From Deltaproteobacteria bacterium (lineage in GTDB: Bacteria; UBA10199; JACPAL01; JACOUP01): a DNA stretch of 64,000 bases. Shown in pieces: positions 49,181 through 62,644 of the stretch. Each line of letters starts with the position of its first letter. Position 1 is the first letter of the stretch. A model generated the notes under the pieces. The model was not told the DNA's origin. It made no database searches and was given only the letters and a program-made list of their open reading frames with translations. The translations under genes were made by a program, and so were the position numbers. The stretch covers positions 1 to 64,000 of the forward strand of contig JACOUP010000002.1 in the NCBI GenBank assembly GCA_016177765.1, read 5' to 3'.

Positions 49181-50542
49181 ATGATGACTATTGTCTATTT
49201 TATCATTTCCCTCGGGCTCCTTGTTTTTATCCACGAGTTTGGTCATTTCCTCGTGGCCAAGTTGTCGGGGATCCGTGTTGAAAAATTTTCCCTGGGCTTC
49301 GGACCGAAACTCATCAGTTTTCGAAAAGGGGAGACGGAGTACCTATTGTCTCTCTTACCCCTCGGTGGTTATGTCAAGCTGACCGGAGAGGACCCGGACT
49401 CCCCGGAGGCGTCGGCGGCCGATTCCTACAGCCAGAAATCGATTGCCCAAAGGCTTCGGGTGGTTGTCGCCGGGCCGTTTATGAATCTCCTCCTGGCCCT
49501 CTTCTTCATGCCGCTGGTTTTCATGATCGGCAAGATGGAGCCGATCTACCTGGACCAAAAACCGGTAGTGCTCGGGGTTTTGGCCGACTCCGCTGCGGCC
49601 AAGGCTGGTCTTCAAAAAGGGGACGAGTTTCTCCGAGTCAACGGCAGGGGTTATTCCCGGTGGCGTGATCTGCTGGATTACATCCTTTTGCATCCCGAAG
49701 AGGAGGTTGTTGTTGATATTCAACGTGCCGGCGGGACCGTGCAGAAAAAAATTGTTATTGAATCACACCCCTCCAACAGAAGTGGCTTCCTGGGGGTGGA
49801 GCCCGGTCAGTTTGTCGGGAATGACCCGGTGGTGGATGAGGTCAGTCCTGATTCTCCGGCGGCAGAGGCCGGATTCCGAAAGGGGGATCGTGTCCTTTCG
49901 ATTAATGGAAAGTCGGTGATGACCTGGACGGAGATGTCCCAGATTGTCTCCGCCTCGGAAGGAAGGCCGTTGGCAGTTGTGGTGGGACGGTCAGAAGGTC
50001 CGAAGGACCTTTCACTCACCCCTTTTCAGGATCAAGCCTCCAGGAAGTGGCTGATGGGGGTCAGGAAGGAGGCCTCGGCTTCCAGCGAAACGATGGTTCT
50101 CAAGAAGTACCCGATGGGTCAGGCGGTCGTGAAGGGGATGGAGGAGAACTGGAAGCTGACCAAACTGACCTTTGGCGTCCTCTACCGGCTTGTCTCGCTC
50201 AAACTTTCTTACAAGGCGCTGGGGGGACCGATCCGGATAGCCCAGGGGGCGGCGATGGCGGCGGAATCAGGGGTTGCCTATTTCCTCTATTTTATCGCTT
50301 TCTTAAGCCTTCAGCTGGCGGTGTTGAATATCCTGCCGATCCCGGTTTTGGACGGCGGGCATGTCTTGTACCTCTTTCTGGAGAAGGTCCGTCGCCGGCC
50401 GGTCTCGATGCGGGTTCGTTCCATTGCCGACCAGACCGGGATGGGGCTTCTGCTCCTTCTGATGTTTTTCGTCACCTTCAATGATATTGATGCGGTCTGG
50501 GGTCTGAAGAGTTTATTCGAGAAGGTCCGCGGGATTTTCTAA
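49181..50542 (+). CDS. rseP: site-2 zinc metalloprotease RseP
   Basis: Encodes 453 aa (ATG 49181 or 49184). The zinc motif HEFGHFLVAK lies near residue 18, and LDGGHVLYLFLEK in the last membrane segment gives the third ligand. Two PDZ domains are visible (about 125-195 and 205-285). RseP cleaves anti-sigma factors and signal peptides inside the inner membrane. It overlaps tsaB by one base. Confidence 0.95.
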   Translation: MMTIVYFIISLGLLVFIHEFGHFLVAKLSGIRVEKFSLGFGPKLISFRKGETEYLLSLLPLGGYVKLTGEDPDSPEASAADSYSQKSIAQRLRVVVAGPFMNLLLALFFMPLVFMIGKMEPIYLDQKPVVLGVLADSAAAKAGLQKGDEFLRVNGRGYSRWRDLLDYILLHPEEEVVVDIQRAGGTVQKKIVIESHPSNRSGFLGVEPGQFVGNDPVVDEVSPDSPAAEAGFRKGDRVLSINGKSVMTWTEMSQIVSASEGRPLAVVVGRSEGPKDLSLTPFQDQASRKWLMGVRKEASASSETMVLKKYPMGQAVVKGMEENWKLTKLTFGVLYRLVSLKLSYKALGGPIRIAQGAAMAAESGVAYFLYFIAFLSLQLAVLNILPIPVLDGGHVLYLFLEKVRRRPVSMRVRSIADQTGMGLLLLLMFFVTFNDIDAVWGLKSLFEKVRGIF

Positions 50543-51258
50543 TGAAAATCCTGGCCCTGGAGTCCGCTACCCTGACCGGCAGTGTTGCCCTTGTCGACGT
50601 AGGGGCGCAGGGCGGTGCGCCCTTACACGTTGAAAAAACCCTGGATGCCTCTCTCCAACACTCCGAGAAATTGTTGCCTGCCGTGATGGAGATTGTCGGT
50701 GATCGGTTGTCATCGATCGACCTATTCGCCGTTGATATCGGCCCTGGTTCCTTTACCGGCCTGCGCGTCGGGGTGGCGTTGATGAAAGGGTTGGCATTTG
50801 CGACCGGAAAACCGCTGGTCGGTGTTTCGTCACTGGAAGCATTGGCGATGAATGCTGTAGGGGCGCAATTAATTGCGCCCCTACATATCGTTCCGATGCT
50901 CGATGCCTATCGCGGTGAAGTGTATACGGCGGTCTATAATGTAGGGGCGGGGTTTCCCCGCCCGGGCGCGGTGACCGCGCCCCTACAACAGATTGAACCG
51001 GAACAGGCGACCCCACCGGAGAAATGGTTGAAATATCTTGTAGGGGTCGTTCGCGAACGACCCCTACAATTCATCGGCGATGGCGCTGTGAAATATCAGG
51101 ATTTAATTCAAAAAATTGTAGGGGCGCGATTCATCGCGCCCGTCAACGATCACCAGATCCATGCTACTAATGTCGCCTTTTTGGCAAAAAAAACAGGGGC
51201 GGTGGATCTACCGCCCCTGCATGAATTAAAACCGAGATACTTGAGACCTGGCGTTTGA
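50542..51258 (+). CDS. tsaB: tRNA threonylcarbamoyladenosine protein TsaB with six palindromes
   Basis: Encodes 238 aa. MKILALESATLTGSVALVDV, HSEKLLPAVMEI and DIGPGSFTGLRVGVALMKGLA identify TsaB, which pairs with TsaD to make t6A37 in tRNAs. The length is close to normal, but six family B palindromes are embedded in the coding sequence, all read in one frame as VGAx...APL-type peptides (for example VGAQLIAPLH and VGARFIAPVN; the last copy reads TGAVDLPPLH). They fill loops and the C-terminal half, which has lost most family likeness. No frameshift is visible and the ORF is intact. The stop lies 1 nt from the convergent lipoprotein gene. Confidence 0.93.
   Translation: MKILALESATLTGSVALVDVGAQGGAPLHVEKTLDASLQHSEKLLPAVMEIVGDRLSSIDLFAVDIGPGSFTGLRVGVALMKGLAFATGKPLVGVSSLEALAMNAVGAQLIAPLHIVPMLDAYRGEVYTAVYNVGAGFPRPGAVTAPLQQIEPEQATPPEKWLKYLVGVVRERPLQFIGDGAVKYQDLIQKIVGARFIAPVNDHQIHATNVAFLAKKTGAVDLPPLHELKPRYLRPGV
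50599..50626. repeat. family B palindrome 1 in tsaB
   Basis: GTAGGGGCGCA...TGCGCCCTTAC with a GGGCGG-type centre; one side has lost one C. Read as VGAQGGAPLH. Confidence 0.8.
50856..50885. repeat. family B palindrome 2 in tsaB
   Basis: TGTAGGGGCGCAATT followed directly by its exact reverse complement: 15-nt arms, no spacer, 30 nt in total. Read as VGAQLIAPLH. Confidence 0.9.
50940..50987. repeat. family B double palindrome 3 in tsaB
   Basis: Two hairpins back to back: GGGGCGGGG-TTT-CCCCGCCC and GGGCGCGG-TGA-CCGCGCCC, enclosed by TGTAG and CTACA. Read as VGAGFPRPGAVTAPLQ. Confidence 0.85.
51039..51068. repeat. family B palindrome 4 in tsaB
   Basis: TGTAGGGGTCGTTCG followed directly by its exact reverse complement, 30 nt. 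Read as VGVVRERPLQ. Confidence 0.9.
51117..51146. repeat. family B palindrome 5 in tsaB
   Basis: TGTAGGGGCGCGAT-T-CATCGCGCCC, with a decayed right end (CGTCAA instead of CCTACA). Read as VGARFIAPVN. Confidence 0.8.
51194..51219. repeat. family B palindrome 6 in tsaB
   Basis: CAGGGGCGGT-GGATCT-ACCGCCCCTG, 10-nt perfect arms, near the 3' end of tsaB. The end triplets are CAG/CTG rather than TAG/CTA. Read as TGAVDLPPLH. Confidence 0.8.
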
Positions 51259-60130: not shown

Positions 60131-61963
60131 ATGAATCGGACCCTTCTCTTTTTCTCCATTATTTCCCTTTTTGCCGCGGCTGTTTTCGCCTTTCCCAATA
60201 GGGAAAAGGCGGCCCTCAATCTTGTCTCGGCACAGGGTGCCTCGCTCCTTGTCTCCGAGGATGACCGGTATCTGTATGTCGGGTTTACCAGTGCCATCAA
60301 GAGGATCGATACCGAGACCTGGTTGTTGACCGGTGATCAGGTTCCCGATCTGACGGAGAGTAAAGAGAAAGAGGCCGATCTTGCCGGCAACCTCAAGGGG
60401 CTGGCCCTGAGGGGGGGGTTCCTCTTTGCGAGCCAGGATGACGGGGATCTGGTCAAGGTGGACCTCTCGAAGATTGGTGACAAGCCGGTGGTCTACCCGG
60501 TCGGTCAGGGGGAGCTGGGGCCTCTGGTGGCCGATCCGGAGACCGGTGGCGAAGATGGCAAGGTTTATGTCGCCGACAAGACGGGAAACAAGATCCAGGT
60601 TTTTGATATCAGCGCGGGCAAGGCGACGGCGGTAGAACTCAAAGATTCGCAGAACAAGCCGGTTTCTCCCGTAGCGATCGCCTTTGTCCCGTTCCCGACA
60701 ACCGCCGGAGAGGGGGGGGAGGCCGACAAGATTTTTGTGACCAGCAACGAGGGACTGGTCTTTGTGATCGGGGAAGGGGGAACCACACCGGCCCTGATTG
60801 ATGTCGATTTTGCCCATCGCGACGATCTCTCTTCAATCGCGGTGACTCCGGACGGAAACTTTGTCCTGGTGACCAACAGCTCCGATGCCACAGTGCACGT
60901 GATCAGCACCTTGACCAACAATCTGGTGGATACAGACGGGAATGCTGCTAACGGGATCACGCCGATCTCCCTGGCCAAAAACGGGTCGCCTGTCGGGGTT
61001 GCCGTGGCTTCGGTTTCCAACCCTGAGGATACCTACGCCTTTGTGACAGGGACCAATGGTGTTTCAGTCATTGATCTTGATCTGAGCGGGACCACCTTTG
61101 TGAAGGCTGTTGTCACCGACAGGAACGATCAGGGGGCGAGTGACACCGAGGATGACCCCTTGGCTGTTTCGTCAACCCCGGGGCCTGTTGTTGCCAGTTC
61201 CGATGGCTACGTTTACACCTCCAACATCAACGGATCAATTTCGGTCATTACCGAAAAACCGTTTCTCACCATCGCCAAGGCGACGATTCTGGATTCCGCC
61301 GGGGCGGAAACCGACAAGCTCAAAAGGGGAGGGAGTTTTACGCTGACCTTTTCATCGAGCGATACCGGCAATTATTCTATCAAGGTGGGGGGAAACAGAT
61401 CAGGAAACGGGACAGAAATCGTCACCGGTACGGTGGACACGGCGGCGACCGATCTGACAACGGCTTCGATCCCGTATGACGCCAATTCGTCAAAATTTGC
61501 GGAAGGGGTCAACCGGGTTTTTGTCTTTCAGGCCGGTTCGGGCAACAAATCGGGGTGGGACGGGATCGATATGACCGTGGATACCCCTCCTGCGGTGGTT
61601 ACCATAACCGGTGTCGATTTTGGGAACGAGAGTATTTACGTCAAATTTACGAGGCTTGATCTGGCGGACATGGATCATTACAACATCACTGTGGACCGTG
61701 ACCCTGCGGTTGTTTTGACCAAGACCGACGTGGCCTCGGCTGTTTCTCAACCGTCTAGCGGGGATGTTTCGGAAAAGATCCAGTACCTGACTAACGGCGT
61801 TGTTTATTACGCGGCTGTCGAAGGGGTGGACAAGGCGGGGAATGTCGGGGCTCGGACCAATACCCTGGCCGATGGGACCCTCGCCTTTAATACCCCGGAG
61901 GAGACAGTCGGGCTTGCCGGGGCGAGCGGGGAGGACGGGGGATGCGCATTAATACCCGAATAA
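60131..61963 (+). CDS. exported beta-propeller protein
   Basis: Encodes 610 aa with a signal peptide ending near VFA-FPN (residue 21). Residues about 30-370 contain repeated short beta motifs typical of YncE-like seven-bladed propellers (KVYVADKTGNKIQVFDIS; NFVLVTNSSDATVHVIS; DTYAFVTGTNGVSVIDLD). A C-terminal part about 400-590 looks like Ig/fibronectin-type domains. The last residues GEDGGCALIPE hold a lone cysteine. It probably acts at the cell surface or periplasm. It overlaps the next gene by 22 nt. Confidence 0.7.
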   Translation: MNRTLLFFSIISLFAAAVFAFPNREKAALNLVSAQGASLLVSEDDRYLYVGFTSAIKRIDTETWLLTGDQVPDLTESKEKEADLAGNLKGLALRGGFLFASQDDGDLVKVDLSKIGDKPVVYPVGQGELGPLVADPETGGEDGKVYVADKTGNKIQVFDISAGKATAVELKDSQNKPVSPVAIAFVPFPTTAGEGGEADKIFVTSNEGLVFVIGEGGTTPALIDVDFAHRDDLSSIAVTPDGNFVLVTNSSDATVHVISTLTNNLVDTDGNAANGITPISLAKNGSPVGVAVASVSNPEDTYAFVTGTNGVSVIDLDLSGTTFVKAVVTDRNDQGASDTEDDPLAVSSTPGPVVASSDGYVYTSNINGSISVITEKPFLTIAKATILDSAGAETDKLKRGGSFTLTFSSSDTGNYSIKVGGNRSGNGTEIVTGTVDTAATDLTTASIPYDANSSKFAEGVNRVFVFQAGSGNKSGWDGIDMTVDTPPAVVTITGVDFGNESIYVKFTRLDLADMDHYNITVDRDPAVVLTKTDVASAVSQPSSGDVSEKIQYLTNGVVYYAAVEGVDKAGNVGARTNTLADGTLAFNTPEETVGLAGASGEDGGCALIPE

Positions 61964-62589
61964 AACGGTTTTTGTTTTTTTCCCTCTTCTTTTTTCCGCT
62001 TGTCCTCCATGCCGAAGAACGGACCCCCCAGTGGTTTTCCCTGGAGCTGAAAGGGGGGTTCTGGCTCCCGCAGGACAAGACGACAGACTCGCTACTGGGG
62101 CTCTGTTGTCATGGGACGATCGGGACGGAGTTCGGATTCTTGTGGCAATCCAAATTCGGGGCTGAAATCGGCGTCGGTTTTCTCAAAGATGGCGGCCATG
62201 CCCTTGGGAAGGGCAGCGGTCGTGTTTCCGGCGACACCTTTGATCTTCTTTTGCTCCCGATGAAGAACAATTTCACCTTCCGCGCCGATTTTCAGGAGAA
62301 CCAGATCGTCGTTCCCTACGTGAAGAGTGGTTTTGATTACGTCTATTATCGCGAGAACCTGGAGGGAAAGGTCACCCAGGGGCTCAAGACCGGTTATCAC
62401 GGGACGGCGGGGGTCCAGTTCCTGATGGAGTTTGCGGAATCGCTGACCCATGAGATGGAGCAGGAGATGGGGATTAACGACCTTTACCTGACCCTGGAGG
62501 GACAGTTTGCCAAGGTGGATAGTTTCGGCAAAACGGGGCTGGATCTTTCCGGCTGGACCTTACAGGCGGGACTCCTCTTTGAATTTTAA
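61942..62589 (+). CDS. predicted outer-membrane beta-barrel protein
   Basis: Encodes 215 aa with a signal peptide (FLFFSLFFFPLVLHA) and the opening WFSLELKGGFWLPQDK. The C-terminus ends LLFEF, the aromatic terminus used for barrel assembly. Pattern and length suit an eight-stranded barrel (OmpA/OmpW-like size). It is translationally coupled to the preceding propeller gene, so the two may act together at the outer membrane. Function unknown. Confidence 0.7.
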   Translation: MRINTRIKRFLFFSLFFFPLVLHAEERTPQWFSLELKGGFWLPQDKTTDSLLGLCCHGTIGTEFGFLWQSKFGAEIGVGFLKDGGHALGKGSGRVSGDTFDLLLLPMKNNFTFRADFQENQIVVPYVKSGFDYVYYRENLEGKVTQGLKTGYHGTAGVQFLMEFAESLTHEMEQEMGINDLYLTLEGQFAKVDSFGKTGLDLSGWTLQAGLLFEF

Positions 62590-62644
62590 TGTACGGGCGG
62601 CCCCATGTGGCCGCCCTGGGCAGACACGTAGGTCTGCCCCTACA
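62590..62644. repeat. family B compound palindrome upstream of truA
   Basis: TGTACGGGCGGCC-CCATGT-GGCCGCCC is joined to GGGCAGAC-ACGTAG-GTCTGCCC and ends CTACA. It fills the whole gap between the outer-membrane gene and truA, leaving no Shine-Dalgarno for truA. It has the same double-hairpin plan as copy 3 in tsaB. Confidence 0.85.

Follow-up and report, generated by a model that had tools for sequence, protein, structure and literature searches.

About one quarter of the tsaB gene analysed here (REPs cover about 191 of its 717 bases) consists of six palindromic elements that are translated in frame and match GTAG-tagged double-foot REPs of the TnpAREP subclass 2.4 (RAYT group 4) type, an assignment that rests on motifs, REP type and REP position in the RAYT. 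The most probable explanation, to which we give a probability of about 0.88, is that RAYT-mobilised REPs accumulated in a tolerant tsaB and were kept where they were harmless. The kind of element is known, namely intragenic and translated GTAG REPs (PMC3733652, PMC6006769), whereas so high a density within a single essential gene is uncommon.

An intact tsaB gene with six translated hairpins

The window, i.e. the whole stretch of 64,000 nucleotides that was analysed (genome G000), contains tsaB at 50542-51258 on the + strand, with an intact reading frame for 238 amino acids. The gene is the final one of a dxr-rseP-tsaB run, and its start overlaps the end of the RseP-like gene. The six elements lie inside it as claimed in the first-pass annotation, but the gene extends beyond the 50599-51219 given there. 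The assignment as TsaB is based on a match to the TIGR03725 model over the whole length (E=3e-42, 144.9 bits versus a cut-off of 69.3), a Pfam TsaD/ASKHA match and a predicted structure with a mean pLDDT of 88.1 that matches YeaZ/TsaB crystal structures with E values down to 2e-17. For comparison we used G001, an independently assembled genome of a sister genus and the sole same-family genome compared. Outside the elements, dN between the two tsaB genes is 0.15 and dS 1.6, and the resulting ratio of about 0.09 indicates that tsaB is under purifying selection. No second tsaB copy was found in G000, and TsaD and TsaE are present. TsaC/Sua5 (PF01300) was not found in G000, which is 96.5% complete, and is present in 14 of 14 control genomes; its lack may be due to incomplete assembly.

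The elements in tsaB and the further copies of the same family in the window are:

Element 1: 50598-50627, + strand; VGAQGGAPLH, degenerate feet, z -3.2; site common to the sister genus; in the model, loop between strands 14-19 and 28-33
Element 2: 50856-50885, + strand; exact 30-nt double-foot palindrome, VGAQLIAPLH, z -7.8; in the model, loop connecting helix 97-105 with strand 114-121
Element 3: 50940-50987, + strand; perfect double hairpin, head-to-head REP dimer VGAGFPRPGAVTAPLQ, z -5.7; site common to the sister genus; in the model, loop between strands 127-134 and 149-157
Element 4: 51039-51068, + strand; exact 30-nt palindrome, VGVVRERPLQ, z -7.1; in the model, end of helix 159-169 plus the loop that precedes strand 175-178
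Element 5: 51117-51141, + strand; VGARFIAPV, 3' foot lost, z -4.7; in the model, end of helix 186-193 and following loop
Element 6: 51194-51221, + strand; feet decayed to CAGGGG/CCCCTG, GAVDLPPLHE, z -6.3; site common to the sister genus; in the model, loop after helix 208-218
Further REP: 146-175, + strand
Further double REP: 62590-62644, + strand; intergenic

All six tsaB elements have the hairpin ends TGTAGGGG/CCCCTACA or decayed forms of them, and each folds far better than its shuffles (z -3.2 to -7.8). They are read in one frame (VGA...APL, with GAVDLPPL in the sixth) and contain no stop, and their interiors differ (GCAATTAATTGC, GTCGTTCGCGAACGAC, CGGGGTTTCCCCG and others). Hence, the initial description of six in-frame hairpins, among them two exact 30-nt palindromes and one double hairpin, that together fill about a quarter of the gene, was confirmed. 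Rfam returned no match for the hairpins.

In the predicted TsaB fold, the element residues (20-28, 106-114, 134-148, 167-175, 193-200 and 219-226) all lie in or at loops. Coil is assigned to 48 of the 58 element residues, whereas random placement gives 23 +/- 5 and none of 20000 placements reached 48. Helices 40-52 and 71-88 of the model are free of elements; their position suggests that they make up the N-terminal helical bundle through which TsaB and TsaD pair (PMC10792529). The C-terminal domain of TsaB is without the nucleotide site of TsaD (PMC10792529). The length of the protein is normal, since relatives have about 226-260 amino acids, and outside the elements about 40 native residues fewer are left than the 212 positions of the TIGR03725 model. 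This normal length argues that the REP-encoded loops replaced native TsaB loops and were not added to them. The replacement could have proceeded by insertion followed by trimming or by overwriting.

REP class and the cognate RAYT

The repeated unit comprises a GTAG foot and a GGGC...GCCC hairpin, and it is found as single copy, as head-to-head dimer or reduced to one palindrome with two feet. The GTAG foot, the GC-rich hairpin of 20-40 nt and the many dispersed copies are those of GTAG-tagged REPs (PMC3733652), and the double-foot form, with GTAG at the 5' and CTAC at the 3' end, is complete in elements 2, 3 and 4 and degenerate in elements 1, 5 and 6. Double-foot REPs and REPs in frame inside the transposase between the HuH and Y motifs are the hallmark of subclass 2.4, the only TnpAREP subclass that has been described with REPs in frame inside the transposase gene (PMC6006769).

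A search with an alignment of RAYTs from related genomes identified an intact-looking RAYT in G000 (C2:131532-132047, E=4.5e-46), which is situated on the same contig about 80 kb from tsaB. The RAYT motifs NH[IFV]H, WQ and YI/V-x-x-NP are present in it as MPNHIHG, WQRNYYEHIIRD and QYVRDNP. Two in-frame copies of GTAGGGGCGCAATTTATTGCGCCC lie within it and encode VGAQFIAPI, to be compared with VGAQLIAPL and VGARFIAPV in tsaB, and element 2 differs by one base from the REP inside this gene. The cognate RAYT had been missed by Pfam Y1_Tnp because the REPs split its domain. NCBIfam REP_Tyr_transpos matches the related RAYTs below its cut-off. In-frame REPs that separate the HuH motif (MPNHxH) from the Y region (WQRNYYE) occur in 22 of 23 RAYT ORFs with both motifs, which were collected from the class and from other phyla including Chloroflexota and Omnitrophota genomes. 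Three transposases of G000 that do match Pfam Y1_Tnp were also considered as source of the REPs and were rejected, as they have no GTAGGGG flanks.

Among genomes of the class, the median TGTAGGGGCG count is 34.5 with and 2 without this RAYT (p=6e-5), which supports our preferred explanation, although this is a correlation across related genomes, uncorrected for kinship. Against the explanation counts that in some REP-rich genomes (G019, G037) no RAYT of this type was detected.

Abundance in the source genome

In the window, TGTAGGGGCG with at most one mismatch occurs 14 times versus 3.1 expected, and none of 100 shuffles reached 14. The genome-wide search for the family proposed in the first-pass annotation yielded 24 exact TGTAGGGGCG half-sites in 1.92 Mb, compared to 5 for the reversed-pattern control, a census that undercounts decayed copies because it is restricted to exact matches. 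Five of these 24 half-sites are in tsaB, where an even spread predicts 0.009, and the gene holds 3 of the 4 intact palindromes (TGTAGGGG-N2..32-CCCCTACA) present in the genome. Thus, tsaB is the hot spot of G000 for these REPs.

According to the first-pass annotation such repeats usually lie between genes, which does not apply here, because 17 of 25 sampled elements of G000 are inside family-supported genes. In-frame copies were found in the Pfam-supported genes miaA, trpE, trpC (two copies), rnr, accC, prmC, tsaD, folC, ribD and an aminotransferase gene; those in accC, rnr and trpE occupy the region that separates two Pfam domains. The view of tsaB as a single essential gene built heavily from palindromes therefore stands with regard to the absence of a stop, a frameshift or a second tsaB, but the gene is not singular. 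The use of one frame holds true for tsaB as well; it was rejected as strong evidence for a special feature, since outside this gene about 14 copies are read in the VGA and 10 in the CRG frame. One of the three frames through an element is always closed by the TAG of GTAG.

Two observations on individual copies may be added. REPs are in frame also in the gene of the TsaB partner TsaD (L054 1519-1547) and in the A37 tRNA-modification gene miaA (L008). The double REP at 62590-62644 begins directly behind the stop codon of ORF 61942-62589 and is located just upstream of an ORF that is TruA-like, as named from its start sequence.

Elements in related genomes

The tsaB gene of G001 carries elements at 3 of the 6 sites occupied in G000, with diverged interiors, and the hairpin of its element 3 is decayed (z -1.75). 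Further copies were found in priA, nadE, carA, leuB, purH, larC, trpE and other genes of G001, and the trpE copy is at the same place in both genomes, just before LNWSPAAF. No element was present in the tsaB genes of about 28 other relatives read (L011-L038). These include G004, which has 197 TGTAGGGGCG sites in its genome and none in tsaB. The sequences of these relatives therefore suggest that tsaB is a hot spot in the family of G000 and G001 only. Presumably, the perfect elements are young, while the decayed elements 1 and 6 occupy sites that were already filled before the two genera split.

The G001 gene shows some peculiarities of its own. At its element-3 site (L010 1929-1981) a second, unrelated-looking repeat, CGACCGAAGGAAGTCCCTGTGGGAT, lies within the REP as a nested repeat insertion; the same repeat is also found near L119 1460-1500. 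A further short insert, GCGAGCAGAGCGAGCGAAGCGAGTGG, belongs to another type of repeat, keeps the frame and encodes SRASEAS (L010 1797-1822). Moreover, the G001 protein (L010 1501-2214) is without the segment that matches FIGDGAVKYQDLIQKI of the window protein and is otherwise conserved among relatives.

Origin of the tsaB elements

According to our preferred explanation, the RAYT would recognise the GTAG foot together with the GGGC...GCCC hairpin in single-stranded DNA and would act in trans, pasting single-stranded REP copies elsewhere, as may be assumed from other TnpAREP proteins, for which recognition and cleavage of single-stranded REP has been shown (PMC8266576). Because an element usually leaves two of the three frames open, many landings in genes would just add a short loop, and copies would be translated as loops of 10 or 16 residues. 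Selection would remove insertions that break the fold, so that only those between secondary-structure elements are retained. The C-terminal half of TsaB may be structurally tolerant and could have accepted many insertions, accumulating them over at least the time since the two genera diverged, and trimming of native loop residues would have kept the overall length normal. We infer in particular that it was the RAYT of G000 that transposed the elements and that the inserts are neutral.

Tolerance alone is insufficient to explain the clustering of six elements in one gene, and a local multiplication step may be needed. Hence, it is conceivable that the RAYT inserts REPs, but that the pile-up in tsaB arose from local copying, such as gene conversion between REPs, instead of six independent landings. 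The large excess of half-sites in tsaB over the even spread and the two copies in trpC are in line with this possibility. However, the six interiors differ from each other, which is not explained by simple duplication, and we consider it rather doubtful that the pile-up came from local copying. Far less probable is an origin in place, in which template-switch or slippage mutagenesis would have turned quasi-palindromes into perfect ones and no transposition would have been involved. The unchanged net length of TsaB, the gap-free alignment of elements 4 and 5 to relatives and the fact that stems vary yet stay complementary would agree with it, but the feet TGTAGGGG and the interiors recur across genes, genomes and phyla, up to an identical 28-mer. 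This recurrence requires a common source, and such a source is carried by the RAYT.

The strong folding (z to -7.8) and the three sites occupied in two genera could also indicate that the hairpins are selected regulatory elements acting on mRNA stability, translation rate or transcription pausing. Since the interiors differ at the shared sites, where one G001 hairpin has even decayed, the other relatives do without the elements, the same elements occur in many unrelated genes, the Rfam search gave no match and the positions track protein loops, a regulatory role is improbable, though slightly less so than the origin in place. Least credible of all is that tsaB is a decaying pseudogene or that the palindromes are an artefact of MAG assembly, both of which the first-pass annotation had named as possible refutations. 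The missing TsaC/Sua5 might point to an incomplete t6A pathway, but the open frame with full TsaB match, the low dN/dS, the lack of a second TsaB next to the presence of TsaD and TsaE and the confident predicted fold speak against decay. An assembly error is unlikely because three of the sites are likewise occupied in the independent sister-genus assembly.

RAYT-mobilised REPs kept in a tolerant gene thus remain our preferred reading. It is tempting, albeit speculative, to go one step further and assume that this REP family is adapted to translation, because it resides in frame in its own transposase gene, where selection acting on the transposase would have kept the palindromes stop-free in two frames and the encoded loop peptides mild. 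We consider this adaptation possible rather than likely. If true, copies could enter genes as ready-made loops and thereby drive the turnover of loops in essential proteins, TsaB being one of them. Among 123 distinct units, 105 have both frames open, whereas palindrome-preserving shuffles give 93.6 +/- 4.4, and for the CRG frame the numbers are 118 and 106.8 +/- 3.4; this excess is only suggestive of selected translatability, because intragenic copies make up much of the sample and the copies are related to each other.

Relation to known REP systems

The closest match are the REPtrons of TnpAREP subclass 2.4 (PMC6006769), with which the present system shares the NH[IFV]H, WQ and YIxNNP-type motifs, perfect palindromes whose two ends are GTAG and CTAC, in-frame REPs in the transposase between HuH and Y, and the occurrence in scattered phyla. 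In contrast to these REPtrons, the REPs are here mostly in host genes, with six in one 717-bp essential gene. The intragenic GTAG REPs reported by Di Nocera et al. 2013 (PMC3733652) are likewise GTAG-tagged singles and dimers; they are translated as in-frame parts of housekeeping genes, some of them for tRNA modification, and clusters reach up to 43-82 encoded residues. However, those REPs are mainly intergenic, and clustered arrays aside they occupy at most two insertion sites per gene, compared to six separate loops of one gene in tsaB. The Rickettsia palindromic elements (RPE) are similar as short palindromes in frame in many unrelated genes, but RPE-1 exceeds the present elements in length and has an unrelated sequence; for R. 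conorii, PMC3733652 lists RPE-4 and RPE-6 as intragenic repeats. REP/BIME of E. coli with its TnpAREP (subclass 2.2) has the GTAG foot, the hairpin and the RAYT association in common with our elements, but differs by bulged, imperfect hairpins, extragenic location and a transposase gene without REP. Searching the literature for the bare motif GTAGGGGC gave only noise.

The present case illustrates the extent to which mobile DNA can remodel an essential protein, with both length and, in the model, fold being kept. Moreover, it ties intragenic REPs to a specific transposase group with the same REPs in its own ORF, and this tie offers a testable reason why, in this lineage, palindromes regarded as extragenic lie mostly inside genes and in frame.

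The exact element 2 palindrome was found in 19 stretches of other genomes. In Ca. Aquidulcis (unrelated Chloroflexota) it is in frame as VGAQLIAPL in ORFs without family support, and in an Anaerolineaceae genome it is outside long ORFs. Finally, a RAYT of Ca. Aquidulcis (L192) shares a single open frame with a long and different N-terminal part that looks NTPase-like by eye, and this ORF carries runs of REP-derived NCAPT repeats.
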